In this document: one piece after another, positions 54,418-61,074 of the stretch
How the letters are laid out: the number at the start of each line of letters is the position of its first letter
Numbering within the stretch: position 1 is the first letter of the stretch
From: a virus
Direction: 5' to 3' (one strand)
IMG/VR virus record: IMGVR_UViG_3300042545_001167
Location: 1 to 64,000 of that record
Length of the DNA: 64,000 nt
Notes under the pieces: model-generated
What the model was told of the DNA's origin: nothing
Database searches by the model: none
The model's input: only the letters and a program-made list of their open reading frames with translations
Program-made: the position numbers and the translations under genes

Positions 54418-57147
54418 TTAATGGCCCATATAAGTTGAATCATAATCAGAATCTACTGCAGAAGACCCTCCTGGCAGCATTCCACCACCAACAGGAACTG
54501 GTACAGGAACATATGATACTTGTGGTGCAGGAACTTTGACTTTAATTCTTTGTCTTCCACCTGCCTCATATCCTGCATAGAACTGAAGAATACTCATCAG
54601 TTGTTTTGCTGAATTTTTTCTTTGTGCAACACTTTCAGTTTGGTTGATTATATCAAAGAAATCAATTCCAAAAGCATCTACAGAATCTTTATCAATAATA
54701 TATTCGCCGGGGTGTGTTCTTACAATTCCACCCTTTCCAGTCGAACCACCACCAAAGAATGCTACGTGGACATGATTGTAGTGTGTGCTAGCAGCAATTG
54801 GAGGAACTTTCTTTCCATCCTTTATACTAAATCCAAGTGGAGTATAAAAAATTTCTTTTGCTGTGGCACCATATCTCTTGATTAGTTCTTTAGCCAGAGA
54901 AAGTTGTTGTGGTGTTCCATTACCAACACTGTCATTTGAAAAATCCATTGCTCTTCCATCATAATGATAACTATCCGGATTATCTTTCCTTACATGAGAA
55001 TATAAAGGAACTCCCATACTTTCAGCAAGACTTTTTACTACAGAAAGATTTCCTGCACCAGCACCAAGAGCAACACCGGTTGGAATATTATAACCACTCT
55101 TAGTTTTATATTTTTCCAAACTAGCAAGATATTCTCTGTGTATTCTTGGACCTTCTGTATTTTGAATATATTCTGCAGGTCTTTCCCATTTTCTCATAAA
55201 CCAATCTGCTGCTTCTTGTGGAGAAGAAAATTTTGTAGAGAGATATTGTTGTCCAGGTTCACCCGGTTCTCTCAGTGCATAATCTATTTGCCCCTTCCAG
55301 TTTGTTGCATAATCAGGAACTGCCTTTAGGAAAGCATCTTTTCTTCCACCACTTGAATATTGGAATAGACCAACTCCAGGTCCTCCAGCTTCAGAAACTC
55401 CAGGTCTAAATCCACTTTCTCTGGATATGTTTGCCATAAGACCTAATGCATGAGTGTCACTCATTCCCTTTGAGAGAAGGTATTGATATATTTCGCCCTG
55501 AAGTCCTTCTGGAGAATATTGTCCACCAACATCTGGAGTGGTAGATGGAACATTTTCTTTCTTTTCACCTTCAGCAGGTTTTAGCATCATCTGCTTCATC
55601 AAATCTTGGATACTTCCTTCAAGTTGTGATGAAATATTATCTTGCAGAGACTTGGCAATTACTTGAGTTAAGTCTTCACCCCGTAAAAACATATCGGCAT
55701 TTACTTCACCACCACTAGCAAATGCACCACCTCTCAATACACCAGAACTGAATGTCATATTCATCCAGGCATTAAGTCCTTGTGCAGCAATACTATAGTC
55801 TAATGGTGTTGGTTTTTGACCAACTAATGCCTTGTCCCTGAGAGATAATAGTGCTCCAAAGAATGGTGCATTCTTAATTTTTTCATTGGATTTTTTAATA
55901 TATCCAAGAGGATTTACTTGCTTATTTTTATCTTTACCTTGAGGAGATGGAAAAACTTTTTCAACATTTTTTTGACCACCAATGTCAGCACCTGGTTTTA
56001 ATTTTGTTGGTTGTGCAGTTACTCCTCTCTTTTTAGTTTTGGAAACTCCTCTTTTTGCAGGACCACCAGTAAACTTTCCACCTCTTGTTATTGCTCCACC
56101 TTGAGCACGACCTTGAACTTTTGGTTTTTGTGGGGTTTTATTTCCAAAAAAAGTATCGTATAAAAGTCCACCTAACCAATCACCAACACTACCACCGGCA
56201 ATACCACCAACAATATTTCCAAAGAAAGGAATTGCAGAACCAAGTGTTACACCAAGAACCGCTCCAAGTGTAGCACCAATAGATTTAAATGCTGCTCTTC
56301 CAAGTGGTTCTTTAAAAATAAAATAATTTATTGCAAAATCAATAAGACCTCCAATTATAGGAATTGCTTTTAAAAGTGGTCTTGCGGCCCTGAGTGCTAC
56401 TTTTGCACCGCCCCTACCAAGTGTTCTTATTAATGTTCTTTTGCCGAATCTTGATGCTGTTTGACCAGATCCTGATGAGGGAACACCGCCAGATGGTTCA
56501 GTTTTAGGCCTATCAAATGAGGGTAATTGTGTTGCGGCAATTGCAGCAATAATAACTGCATTAACAGCATTATTAAATCCATCAAAAATTTTAACTGCAT
56601 TATCCCCACCCACGGTCTTTAGAAATCCACGAGTTTGTTTTGATGCTTCATCTGTTTTTTGAATAAAAGTTCCCAGTGCATCAATCAATCCTACAGAAAA
56701 ATCTGCAGCAAATTCAACACCAGTACTAACTACTTTTACTACTCCAAGTAACTTTGGAAGATTTGGAAGCATCTTAACAACAAATCTTCCAAGTAAAACT
56801 GCGAAGATAATATTTTTAATTCTTTCTAAAAATCCCAATTTGGGAACCCCAGGAACTTTAACTTTTTCTGTTCCTGGTTGTTCTTTTTTTGTTTCAAGTT
56901 CTGCTTCTTTTTTTGAAAATTTATCCCTCTCTTCTTGTTTTCTTTTTTTGGTTATTTCTACTTGCTTTAATAAAGTAGAACTTTTGATCAAGTTTTTTAC
57001 TTCTATAACTTGAGTTTTAATAACTACCAAATCACCTTTTTGAGGTCCAATATTGTTTGATACACTAATTTTTTTAATTGCAAAGGAGGAACCACCTAGA
57101 AGTTTTGTTGGATTGATTTTTGCAGGTGCTAGTGCTTTTGGTTCCAT
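54418..57147 (-). CDS. Tape-measure-type hub protein with lysozyme and M15-like peptidase domains, 909 aa
   Basis: Coiled N-terminus (about 1-110), hydrophobic central segments (about 110-330, ending in AIPFFGNIVGGIAGG), a Phage_lysozyme2-like domain (about 540-690; ANISRESGFRPG with Glu577) and an M15-type peptidase-like domain (about 695-800) with zinc ligands His728 and Asp735 in HYDGRAMDF and His794 in HYNHVHVAF. It ends with the tape-measure-type phrase VRTHPGEYIIDKDSVDAFG. It could set tail length and cut peptidoglycan glycan and peptide strands during injection. Confidence 0.8.
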   Translation of the reverse strand: MEPKALAPAKINPTKLLGGSSFAIKKISVSNNIGPQKGDLVVIKTQVIEVKNLIKSSTLLKQVEITKKRKQEERDKFSKKEAELETKKEQPGTEKVKVPGVPKLGFLERIKNIIFAVLLGRFVVKMLPNLPKLLGVVKVVSTGVEFAADFSVGLIDALGTFIQKTDEASKQTRGFLKTVGGDNAVKIFDGFNNAVNAVIIAAIAATQLPSFDRPKTEPSGGVPSSGSGQTASRFGKRTLIRTLGRGGAKVALRAARPLLKAIPIIGGLIDFAINYFIFKEPLGRAAFKSIGATLGAVLGVTLGSAIPFFGNIVGGIAGGSVGDWLGGLLYDTFFGNKTPQKPKVQGRAQGGAITRGGKFTGGPAKRGVSKTKKRGVTAQPTKLKPGADIGGQKNVEKVFPSPQGKDKNKQVNPLGYIKKSNEKIKNAPFFGALLSLRDKALVGQKPTPLDYSIAAQGLNAWMNMTFSSGVLRGGAFASGGEVNADMFLRGEDLTQVIAKSLQDNISSQLEGSIQDLMKQMMLKPAEGEKKENVPSTTPDVGGQYSPEGLQGEIYQYLLSKGMSDTHALGLMANISRESGFRPGVSEAGGPGVGLFQYSSGGRKDAFLKAVPDYATNWKGQIDYALREPGEPGQQYLSTKFSSPQEAADWFMRKWERPAEYIQNTEGPRIHREYLASLEKYKTKSGYNIPTGVALGAGAGNLSVVKSLAESMGVPLYSHVRKDNPDSYHYDGRAMDFSNDSVGNGTPQQLSLAKELIKRYGATAKEIFYTPLGFSIKDGKKVPPIAASTHYNHVHVAFFGGGSTGKGGIVRTHPGEYIIDKDSVDAFGIDFFDIINQTESVAQRKNSAKQLMSILQFYAGYEAGGRQRIKVKVPAPQVSYVPVPVPVGGGMLPGGSSAVDSDYDSTYMGH

Positions 57148-57151
57148 TTAC

Positions 57152-59293
57152 TTATCTTACTCCATATATCTTTGCATTTCTGACTGCATTATTAGATGCA
57201 TGAACATTACTAAATGATGGTACTTGAGGAGAACCACCAAGACCACCTACAGATGGTTTTGTTGAACTTGGAACAGCAACTTCATAAACTATTTCTGGCA
57301 TAAAATTAGTTGGTGCAGAAATATTTCTTTGAGATGATCTAGATTTTGAAGCAGAGAAAGTCATTGTTGGAATTGATGATGACTTTCTCTGAGAAGAATC
57401 TGGAGAAAGTCCACCTGCAAATCTTGGTTTAGGTTTGGAAACTGGTTCTGCTTTTGCTGGTTGATTTAATCCAAACATAGATGCAATACCAGTTCCAACT
57501 TTCTGCAGAATATTTGGTTGCTGACCTTTTGGTTTTGGTTTTGATGCAATATTTGCAGATGAACTTGAATTTAATATTCTTTTAGCCGCTGCCATTCTTG
57601 CAGATTCGTGCGGTACGCTTGGTGCTTCATATCCAAGCATAAAATTCTTGGTTGCTTCACTTAAATTTTTTGAACCTAACCAAGCACTCTTCGTTTCTCT
57701 TCCCCAAGGAAGTTGAGGTCTTCCTTGAGAGTCTGGATTGCCAGTATCCATTTCATACTTAACATAATCCATTTGTTGCTTCAGGTTATTAAAAACTCCA
57801 GGACCATATCTCTTTACTGCAGTATCCCATCTTCCAGGAGTTTCCCATTGTGCCACTCCTCTACCAGGACCTCCACCGTCTTGAGCAGTATTTGGTTTTA
57901 ATCCAGGTGCCTCAATTGAGAAATTGCCAAGAGCAGCAGCAATATGATAAGGTTTTGCTGATGGGAAATTTAATTTGAGTTGATTGTATGCAATTTTTTC
58001 ATTTCCGCCCAATGGAGGATCAACACTACGAGTTCCAATCTGCCCACCACCTGCAGCATAAGTTGTTCCAGTAATCATTCTTGGTCTGTTTGTTCCTCCA
58101 CCAGAAGCATTCATTGCCTCTAAAGTGCTTGTACCGTACTTCTGGACAGCACCACGCGACATAACAAATTCACCATCACTCAACATTGCGGGAATTTTAT
58201 CTACACCCTTTTGTCCACTGATGTATCCAGGTCTTGTACCACCACCAAAAAATCCAAATAATTTTTTAAAGTTTGCAAGTCCACCACCAGCAAATTTAAC
58301 TCCACCAAAATCTTCAATGCCTTTACTCAGTGCCATAGTACCGGCAACTGCTGTACCAATTTCTAATCCAGCACCTAATAGTTTCCCACCTCTACCGCCA
58401 AGGAATCCTGCAACCTTACCAGCACCTCTCAATCCTGCTCTTGCTGCCAATCCTGCTGCTGCTTGAACAAGTCTTAAAGTTCCCCTGATTAGAAGTGAAG
58501 ATAAACCTCCAATAAATTTACCAAGACCTGTTCCAAATCTTAGATACAGTGCAAGTAGTTTTGGCCAATGTTCACCAAGAAACTTAAAGATGCTCTTGAC
58601 TTTTTCTTGATTATCTTTATTACCAAACCATTCAATTAGTTTTACAATAGACCTTCCAATAAAAATAGCAATGATTGCATCAATAATTTTATCAAGTAAT
58701 GACTTGATAGGTGCCAACATCTTTTGTGCTGCACCAAGTGCCTTAGTAAATCCTTTTTCTAAAAGTGCTTCTGCTCCTGCTCTTTTTTCCTTTTCACTCT
58801 GTATTCTTTCTCTTTCTAATATCTTTTTCTGAATTTTATTCTGTTCTGTTAAATTGGCAATGATTTGAGATAGAGCATTTTTAATATTATTAATATCATT
58901 TGCCCCAGACATATTATCAATCGCTGAAGGCAATGCCAATCTTTTAGTTGATATTCCCTTAAGTAATTTTTGTTTTCCTAATTGGATTCCTACAGCACTT
59001 CCTTTTTTAAAACTTTCTACACTAATTTTTTTTGGTTTAAATCTACCTTTCTTTGATTTTACTCTCTTCCATTCATTTGTGATTAATTCTGTTTCCAAGG
59101 TTGAATATCTAGTTTTAGACATTCTGGAAGCAACCATTGCTTCTTTTAAATGTCCAGAATATTCATCATAGGACAATTCATATTCATCCTGAAGACCAAG
59201 CAGTTCTAAAATCCTTTCATCAATTTTTTCAGTAGATACCTTCTTCCCATTAGAGAGAACTAGAGAACTAATTTTAGAAGGATTGACCGCCAT
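57152..59293 (-). CDS. Tape-measure-type hub protein with lysozyme-like domain, 713 aa
   Basis: Helical N-terminus (KRVKSKKGRFKPKKISVESF), membrane-like central stretches (about 200-330), the tape-measure motif KIPAMLSDGEFVMSRGAVQK, and a Phage_lysozyme2-like domain from Gly429 to about 575 (AALGNFSIEAPGLKPN with the candidate catalytic Glu461; GRGVAQWETPGRW). It resembles the 909-residue protein in layout, so the two are probably paralogous hub/tape-measure proteins that share the gp29-like role. The start overlaps the small ORF at 59274 by 20 bases. Confidence 0.8.
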   Translation of the reverse strand: MAVNPSKISSLVLSNGKKVSTEKIDERILELLGLQDEYELSYDEYSGHLKEAMVASRMSKTRYSTLETELITNEWKRVKSKKGRFKPKKISVESFKKGSAVGIQLGKQKLLKGISTKRLALPSAIDNMSGANDINNIKNALSQIIANLTEQNKIQKKILERERIQSEKEKRAGAEALLEKGFTKALGAAQKMLAPIKSLLDKIIDAIIAIFIGRSIVKLIEWFGNKDNQEKVKSIFKFLGEHWPKLLALYLRFGTGLGKFIGGLSSLLIRGTLRLVQAAAGLAARAGLRGAGKVAGFLGGRGGKLLGAGLEIGTAVAGTMALSKGIEDFGGVKFAGGGLANFKKLFGFFGGGTRPGYISGQKGVDKIPAMLSDGEFVMSRGAVQKYGTSTLEAMNASGGGTNRPRMITGTTYAAGGGQIGTRSVDPPLGGNEKIAYNQLKLNFPSAKPYHIAAALGNFSIEAPGLKPNTAQDGGGPGRGVAQWETPGRWDTAVKRYGPGVFNNLKQQMDYVKYEMDTGNPDSQGRPQLPWGRETKSAWLGSKNLSEATKNFMLGYEAPSVPHESARMAAAKRILNSSSSANIASKPKPKGQQPNILQKVGTGIASMFGLNQPAKAEPVSKPKPRFAGGLSPDSSQRKSSSIPTMTFSASKSRSSQRNISAPTNFMPEIVYEVAVPSSTKPSVGGLGGSPQVPSFSNVHASNNAVRNAKIYGVR

Positions 59294-59450
59294 TTGCTTG
59301 TTGTTTGAGTTTCTCTTCTTCCAGATGTTGCTTCAATAATTCAACATAAACATCCCTTTCCCAAGGAATCATATTTTCAATCTCTGTTAATGAGTATTTA
59401 TGATACTGCATTAAAGCAAAGTTAAGTCTGAAGTAGTTCTCAAGGTCCAT
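59274..59450 (-). CDS. Small helical protein, possible frameshift extension of gp26, 58 aa
   Basis: The 58 codons read MDLENYFRLNFALMQYHKYS, then EIENMIPWERDVYVELLKQH and an acidic-basic helix. This resembles the T domain of tail-assembly chaperones, which recruits the tape-measure protein. In T4 gene 51 lies at this place between gene 26 and the hub genes. The frame continues open upstream without a stop into the end of gene 26. It may be translated only as a gp26 fusion by -1 slippage at 59468-59474, or also from its own ATG, which lies in a hairpin and lacks a clear Shine-Dalgarno sequence. Confidence 0.75.
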   Translation of the reverse strand: MDLENYFRLNFALMQYHKYSLTEIENMIPWERDVYVELLKQHLEEEKLKQQANGGQSF

Positions 59451-59474
59451 ATGGACCAGTGCTATGCGAAAAAA
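59444..59474 (-). promoter_or_regulatory. Candidate -1 ribosomal frameshift signal
   Basis: On the minus strand T TTT TTC lies in the gp26 frame (codons TCT TTT TTC), followed after 10 bases by the perfect inverted repeat GGTCCATATGGACC. Sliding back one base continues CGC ATA GCA CTG GTC CAT into the small ORF before the gp26 TAG would be read. Heptamer, spacer and stem match the usual composition of -1 frameshift sites in phage tail-chaperone genes. Confidence 0.6.
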
Positions 59475-60181
59475 GATGCTAACCCTTCTAGAACTACTTC
59501 ACTCTCTACTTTAGTTTTTGGATTTGTAACTGTAATTTTATGAGAAAGTCTTGGCATTGTTTCAAAGAATTTTTCAATTTCTTTGAACTGAGCAGAATTC
59601 ATCTGCTCTAAAAATTCAAGAAGTTCTTTTTTAGTTACATCAGATGCTGCCCACACTTCATCTTCAGTATAAATTTTATCAATACAAGATGCAATCAATT
59701 CAAATGATTGATCCATTGCATTATCATTTTTAAAATCAAAATTAGTCTTAATAAATTGATCCAATGAAGGATACTTCATTTCCATTATAATAGTAGGATC
59801 TACTTTAATTTTATTTGTATGAGTTTCTTCCTTTTGAACTTTAATGTCGTCTAGATTGATACTGACGGCAACATTAGTTTCTTCGTCGTCAGGACAAATA
59901 ACATTAACTTCGATTTCTTCTCCTACCGACTTTCCACGAATATTTAAGAACAAATATTCAATATCAAAAGTAGGAAGAGATTCTACCTTAACACCTTTTG
60001 TGATAATGCAATTTTTAATTACTGTCTTAATAGCAGTAGTAATTTGCTTAGTATCTTCACTCTCTAAAGCAATTACTAGTACCTTTTCTTCTTTTACTAG
60101 AAATGGTCTGTATTGAACTGTTTCCCCTGTTGATGGCAATTCAAGTTGATAAATTGGCGTACTAATCTTTGGTAAAGGCAT
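59462..60181 (-). CDS. gp26: Baseplate hub/tail-assembly protein gp26, 239 aa
   Basis: The N-terminus (MPLPKISTPIYQLELPSTGE, then YRPFLVKEEKVLVIALES) and the central CPDDEE, MKYPSLDQFIKTN and FFETMPRLSHKI match the T4 base-plate family (PF12322). Its placement before a small helical ORF and the tape-measure-type genes follows the 26-51-(27-29) logic of T4. Near the end the sequence GLASFFA* contains the slippery heptamer, so a minority product of about 302 residues may also be made. Confidence 0.8.
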   Translation of the reverse strand: MPLPKISTPIYQLELPSTGETVQYRPFLVKEEKVLVIALESEDTKQITTAIKTVIKNCIITKGVKVESLPTFDIEYLFLNIRGKSVGEEIEVNVICPDDEETNVAVSINLDDIKVQKEETHTNKIKVDPTIIMEMKYPSLDQFIKTNFDFKNDNAMDQSFELIASCIDKIYTEDEVWAASDVTKKELLEFLEQMNSAQFKEIEKFFETMPRLSHKITVTNPKTKVESEVVLEGLASFFA

Positions 60182-60225: not shown

Positions 60226-61074
60226 TCAAAGATTAAGATTTGCTGCCTGTTGCAAATTAATAGAATTTCCAGATAACTGAGATGCTGACAAAGAAACTCC
60301 ACCAATTGTTTGGTTTGGAATAATCTGTGGATTTGTAAATACAGATTGATTGAATATTAAACTATTTGCTGCCGCAAGTTGTTGTGGACTTGATCCATTT
60401 ACATTAGTATTTGGGGTAATGACAGGATTTACAACATATCTAAGATATGTAAGAGAAACTGTACATTTTAATAAGGAAGCAGTATCGTAAGATACAGGTA
60501 TTGAAGAAACACTGATAGGGAATACTTTTACAAAAGTATACTCCAAAGACCCACCAGTATAGTTTGAGTTTTTACCAGTTCTTTCAAATTTTGTAACTTT
60601 CATTCCATCAGCAACATATCCACCACTTGGATTTTTTCCACCAGTTCCCTCAGGATAGTTCATTCTATAAAAATAATTACTACCAGTTGTTCCCACTCTA
60701 CCACCTTCTTTTTCTGAAATATTTTCCCCAACAATATATTTCATCCAGGTTTCAAAGTATCTGATAGGAAGATAATTTTCTGCATCAACATAAAAACTTA
60801 AATCAATTCTATCATCATATAATCTTCTATATACATGTCTTTCAGTTACTCCTGTAAAATCATTATTGATTTCGTGAGTTGCTAGACTTGACCCAGGAAG
60901 AGAAGCCTCAGAACACAATAAATTTAATTTGATTTGATCATACTTGACTCCATTACTCGACAAATAATCTGACGTTAATCCACCAGGTCTTGGAATACTT
61001 ACCTCAAAATGAGAGGTAAGAGCAGGTTGTAGAAGGTTTGCCTTAATTTGGTCTACTGTCCTATTAGTAGGCAT
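60226..61074 (-). CDS. gp54: Tail-tube-fold protein, probably baseplate tube initiator gp54, 282 aa
   Basis: The protein has the tail-tube pattern seen in T4 gp19/gp54: N-terminal HFEVSIPRPGG, CSEASLPGSSLATHEINNDF, then DRIDLSFYVDAENYLPIRYF, a WMKYI helix and the closing VFPISVSSIPVSYD. The neighbourhood (gp26, gp48, gp4, gp53) favours gp54 over the major tube gp19. It is the last leftward gene before the direction switches at 61 kb. No late promoter is seen ahead of it. Confidence 0.65.
   Translation of the reverse strand: MPTNRTVDQIKANLLQPALTSHFEVSIPRPGGLTSDYLSSNGVKYDQIKLNLLCSEASLPGSSLATHEINNDFTGVTERHVYRRLYDDRIDLSFYVDAENYLPIRYFETWMKYIVGENISEKEGGRVGTTGSNYFYRMNYPEGTGGKNPSGGYVADGMKVTKFERTGKNSNYTGGSLEYTFVKVFPISVSSIPVSYDTASLLKCTVSLTYLRYVVNPVITPNTNVNGSSPQQLAAANSLIFNQSVFTNPQIIPNQTIGGVSLSASQLSGNSINLQQAANLNL

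Follow-up and report, generated by a model that had tools for sequence, protein, structure and literature searches.

A probable -1 ribosomal frameshift at the end of cyanophage gene 26 predicts short and long forms of a tail-assembly chaperone

The window analysed here, the whole stretch of 64,000 nucleotides, is part of a virus record of 116,709 bases from IMG/VR (IMGVR_UViG_3300042545_001167) that resembles T4-like cyanophages. A tail-tube-like gene, gp26 and a tape-measure-type gene follow one another on its minus strand, and a short gp51-like reading frame spans the junction of the latter two. The locus comprises the following features:

61074..60226, minus strand: tail-tube-like gene, just before gp26
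59462..60181, minus strand: gp26, putative short tail-assembly chaperone, 239 codons plus TAG, with a PF12322 domain
59483..59486, minus strand: AGGG in the codons GAA GGG, a Shine-Dalgarno-like candidate 5' stimulator that ends 8 nt before the heptamer
59468..59474, minus strand: slippery heptamer T TTT TTC in the gp26 frame, of the canonical form X XXY YYZ
59462..59464, minus strand: gp26 stop codon TAG, one codon past the heptamer
59274..59468, minus strand: -1-frame extension, consisting of an R-I-A-L-V-H linker, a 58-codon gp51-like domain and a stop, with a predicted fusion to gp26 of 302 residues
59444..59457, minus strand: stem-loop GGTCC-ATAT-GGACC, a candidate 3' stimulator that starts 10 nt after the heptamer
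57152..59293, minus strand: tape-measure-type gene, 713 aa, matching phrog_35029, phrog_9570 (tape measure) and PF18013 (tail lysozyme)

The 3' end of gp26 reads GAA GGG TTA GCA TCT TTT TTC GCA TAG. The -1 frame, already open before the heptamer is reached, stays so as far as 59274. Within this frame lies an ORF of 58 codons (59450..59274, minus strand), whose ATG is partly within the hairpin loop. The start of the tape-measure-type gene at 59293 sits inside this small ORF and overlaps the end of the extension. The first-pass annotation had pointed to the heptamer at the gp26 end, the stem 10 nt further on, the open -1 frame and the 58-codon ORF overlapping the tape-measure-type gene, and all of these were confirmed in the sequence. 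The gene pair is placed right before the tape-measure-type gene, as in the G/GT kind; in Cr30, the annotated tail tape measure protein comes one small ORF after the pair. Further along the minus strand, the 713-aa protein (57152-59293) has a tape-measure-like neighbour of 909 aa (54418-57147). Each of the two matches PF18013, phrog_35029 and phrog_9570, which suggests that they form a tandem pair.

Gp26 matched PF12322 with E=4.9e-76 (255.7 bits; curated cut-off 24.5) and phrog_150 with E=1.8e-81. For the 58-codon ORF, the matches were phrog_634 (E=8.5e-27), a family named 'baseplate hub assembly catalyst', and the C-terminal end of phrog_150. Joined in the predicted 302-aa fusion, the two cover positions 5-281/282 of phrog_150 (E=1.4e-92), and the fusion likewise matches phrog_634. 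The corresponding proteins of T4 show the same division: gp26 of T4 (208 aa) consists of just the PF12322 domain, whereas its gp51 (249 aa) carries the domain together with the phrog_634 extension in frame and, like the fusion, matches phrog_150 end to end. Thus, T4 encodes the short and the long form as two genes. These are separate genes, as had been proposed; however, they are divergent paralogues on opposite strands (L090:10803-12229) and not separate versions of the two ORFs described here. The window's gp26 is the only copy of PF12322 in the record of 116,709 bases, and no second PF12322 gene with an in-frame extension (the T4 two-gene layout) was found there, although the record may be incomplete.

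An AlphaFold2 model of gp26 (pLDDT 84.7) gave no significant match to the PDB in Foldseek. Its weak matches (E above 1) include 2ob9, the HK97 tail-assembly chaperone, as well as 3klu and 3fgx, which we take to be relatives of 2ob9; none of the three was among the matches listed in the structure search with a model of a T4-like gp51. As the PDB matches were weak, structure comparison was dropped as proof of a chaperone fold. Searching the sequences of PDB entries by profile yielded no match, and NCBIfam gave no relevant family.

The sequence T TTT TTC occurs 21 times in the window, fewer than in shuffles; it is not enriched there, and its rarity was dropped as evidence. Since the heptamer sequence alone is not rare, the evidence lies in its position, register and conservation. 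Conservation was assessed on 127 loci in all, some of them near-duplicates. The close set holds 78 IMG/VR relatives with 71-100% protein identity, which are mutually non-independent, and 71 distinct gp26 genes among them were used for codon counts. The remote relatives, among them phages at 25-40% identity, are Cr30, pf16, Moby, P19, D482, phiM9, Milchi, P-SSM2, syn9, S-SM1, S-SM2, S-SKS1, P-HM2, S-H34, ACG-2014d, Melnitz-2, DLP6, phi-ST2 and Vibrio phage 1.244.A, and a further 30 IMG/VR contigs that include a few near-duplicates. An IMG/VR scan with gp26 of Vibrio D482 as query found no relatives.

All 78 close loci carry an identical T TTT TTC with a stop one codon past it and a -1 frame open into the gp51-like domain. 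The pattern extends to the remote phages: T TTT TT(C/T/G) stands in register in 126/127 loci, every heptamer-bearing locus has its stop 0 or 1 codon past the heptamer, and the -1 frame is open in all 126, either into a recognisable gp51-like domain or, where truncated, up to the contig end. The comparison of gene 26 ends that the first-pass annotation had suggested thus revealed conservation of both the heptamer and the out-of-frame extension. The sole exception is the Ackermannviridae-like Vibrio phage 1.244.A (L086), which is without a clean heptamer. This phage has a TAATG overlap, and it possibly uses reinitiation instead of a slip.

Within the heptamer, Phe237 and Phe238 are encoded by TTT TTC in 71/71 distinct close gp26 genes; Phe codons elsewhere in these genes are 74% TTT and 26% TTC. 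On the gene tree, both heptamer Phe columns show 0 changes, compared to 14-23 changes at 6/10 other conserved Phe columns. Of the remaining conserved columns, 148 and 206 also have 0 changes and two others 3-4, so that the invariance of the heptamer Phe codons by itself is not unique in gp26. Codon 236 changed 17 times on the tree among AGT, TCT, GGT and GAT, ending in T every time, as the heptamer needs. Taken together, codons 234-236 and 239 vary in the close loci around a fixed heptamer.

Upstream of the heptamer, each of the 71 distinct genes has AGGG in one of two registers (GAA GGG or GAG GGN), with 8-9 nt between its end and the heptamer. GAA was never paired with GGA, GGT or GGC (p=2.7e-13 in a Fisher test that makes no correction for ancestry), and among 3655 codon pairs, E232 and G233 are the most strongly associated at their third bases (normalised mutual information 0.70; mean 0.05). 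In addition, gp26 has two minima of mean anti-Shine-Dalgarno pairing energy, and one of them lies just upstream of the heptamer. From these codon patterns, AGGG appears to be preserved by synonymous compensation. The signal could also reflect shared ancestry: on the tree, the association comprises no more than 3 independent contrasts with good support, all same-direction or neutral. Nevertheless, the 3655 codon pairs all have this tree in common, and E232/G233 still ranks first among them. A Shine-Dalgarno-like 4-mer of some kind is present in many remote phages, though not always as AGGG.

Downstream, the 5-bp stem folds with -8.3 kcal/mol (z -2.3). Its covariation comprises changes on both sides in 5/5 pairs, a score reached by 0/500 shuffles. 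By inspection, the stem is absent in many remote phages.

The extension itself bears marks of translation in the -1 frame. In close relatives, the linker Arg is kept in 75/76 distinct junctions with its third base free, and a base change that is synonymous for this Arg is non-synonymous in the gp26 frame. The linker preceding the ATG is therefore conserved as protein in the -1 frame. Furthermore, Aeromonas P19 and its relatives, the loci L031, L092, L096, L105 and L111-L119, Melnitz-2 and ACG-2014d have no ATG, GTG or TTG close to where the extension begins. In these lineages, the full extension could be expressed only through a change of frame. The public records of Aeromonas P19 (L084) and Synechococcus ACG-2014d (L127) have no annotated gene at the extension.

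A frameshift is supported by the heptamer that nearly all loci keep in register, by the open -1 frame, by the start-less extensions, by the full-length family matches of the fusion and by the two-gene equivalent in T4. From the sequences, we consider it very likely (probability about 0.92) that a -1 slip yields gp26 and a gp26-gp51 fusion as the short and the long tail-assembly chaperone. The fusion of about 302 residues before the tape-measure-type gene, as predicted by the first-pass annotation, is supported by the 126/127 heptamers, the extensions devoid of a start and the span of phrog_150. In this mechanism, ribosomes reaching the end of gene 26 would meet U UUU UUC, where a minority would slip back by one base, bypass the TAG and read RIALVH and the gp51-like helical domain. 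The products would be gp26 as the short chaperone, comparable to lambda gpG, and, in the minority, the long gp26-gp51, comparable to gpGT; the two forms would presumably coat the tape-measure protein and recruit tail-tube subunits. The frameshift cassette of E. coli dnaX consists of an SD-like element, a heptamer and a 3' stem; the slip here is probably aided in the same way, by pairing of AGGG with 16S rRNA and by the 5-bp downstream stem. We infer the occurrence and rate of the slip, the roles of the stimulators and the chaperone function of the products; a fixed ratio of gp26 to fusion, as had been put forward, is carried over from lambda by analogy and may apply here.

The gp51-like domain could instead be a small protein in its own right, made by ribosomes that terminate at the end of gp26 and reinitiate at the ATG of the small ORF; the poly-T would then be incidental, the Phe-Phe pair would be kept for the protein, and there would be no fusion. 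This would fit the ATG found at the start of the small ORF in 74/78 close loci, the TAATG- or TGATG-type overlaps in Cr30, D482, phiM9 and phi-ST2 and the annotation of two genes in public records. However, the start is missing in many lineages, and amino acids leave unexplained why the nucleotides of the Phe codons, and the T in front of them, do not vary. The conservation of the linker before the ATG in the -1 frame and the in-frame fusion of the extension in T4 argue in the same direction. The first-pass annotation had named relatives that lack the heptamer and have a strong ribosome-binding site for the small ORF as evidence against a frameshift; only one locus of 127 is without a clean heptamer, and the Shine-Dalgarno match of the small ORF is weak (mean 2.4 nt vs 3.5 for gp26). 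We therefore regard translation of gp51 solely from its own ATG as highly improbable. The same ATG may also act alongside the frameshift, with the slip making the fusion and the ATG adding a free gp51-like peptide in cyanophages. Its conservation in the close loci and its position partly in the hairpin loop would be in line with such a dual use, but a Met at that position is not kept in P-SSM2, syn9, S-SM1 and P-HM2, and we consider the additional peptide rather unlikely.

The same fusion protein would also result if RNA polymerase slipped on the T6-T7 run and added one U, and the T run is indeed conserved. Yet, this run is only 6-7 T long, its register against the gp26 codons agrees with slippage of tandem tRNAs, and the flanking elements that covary, AGGG and the stem, are of a translational type. 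There is thus very little probability that polymerase slippage, and not the ribosomal frameshift, accounts for the fusion.

A more far-reaching version of the ribosomal frameshift would be that AGGG-16S pairing, U UUU UUC and the covarying stem form a three-part, dnaX-like cassette tuned to set the chaperone ratio, and that in T4 a gene duplication, giving gp26 and gp51, took the place of such a slip. We propose this tentatively, at somewhat less than even odds.

Frameshifting of the lambda G/GT type in long-tailed phages was reportedly described by Xu, Hendrix and Duda in 2004. Frameshifted tail-assembly chaperones are widespread, with T4 named as an exception, and lambda G/GT makes a short protein and a minority long form by a -1 slip just before the tape-measure gene (PMC5009743). 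In Vandenendeviridae/Andersonviridae (phage Adele), the chaperone gene that precedes the tape-measure gene has a conserved -1 slip at a poly-T (PMC12846349). With regard to T4-like phages, Vladimirov et al. 2022 (Virology) is cited in the PRFect paper for separate short and long chaperone genes (PMC10885494) and in the Adele paper for poly-T slip sites (PMC12846349). Frameshifted tail-assembly chaperones, including T4-like ones, are thus already known as a kind, and the link between the T4 hub-assembly genes and the general chaperone system, which the first-pass annotation had drawn, is not new, as Vladimirov, Gautam and Davidson reportedly identified the chaperone genes of T4-like phages in 2022. 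A search of the open-access literature, a scope outside which Vladimirov 2022 lies, found no paper on frameshifting specifically in cyanophage gene 26. The two flanking elements, the compensated AGGG and the covarying 5-bp stem, are apparently new, as no earlier description of either was found in the open-access literature. The frameshift would explain why T4-like cyanophages have a tiny gene for a 'hub assembly catalyst' next to gene 26: it would be the tail of a frameshifted chaperone, which public records annotate as a separate gene or omit.

The proposed system resembles lambda G/GT in producing a short form and a minority long form by a -1 slip before the tape-measure gene, but differs in its protein family (PF12322), its U UUU UUC slip site and its candidate flanking stimulators. 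The Adele locus likewise has a -1 slip at a poly-T before the tape-measure gene; there, however, the motif is GTTTTT and the phages belong to a different group. The likeness to dnaX is one of layout only, with an SD-like element, a heptamer and a 3' stem, the stem here being short (5 bp) and its spacer 10 nt. With the T4-like gp26/gp51 chaperones of Vladimirov 2022, the locus shares the protein family (PF12322, phrog_150, phrog_634), and in contrast to the two paralogous genes of T4, it would make do with one gene and a slip.
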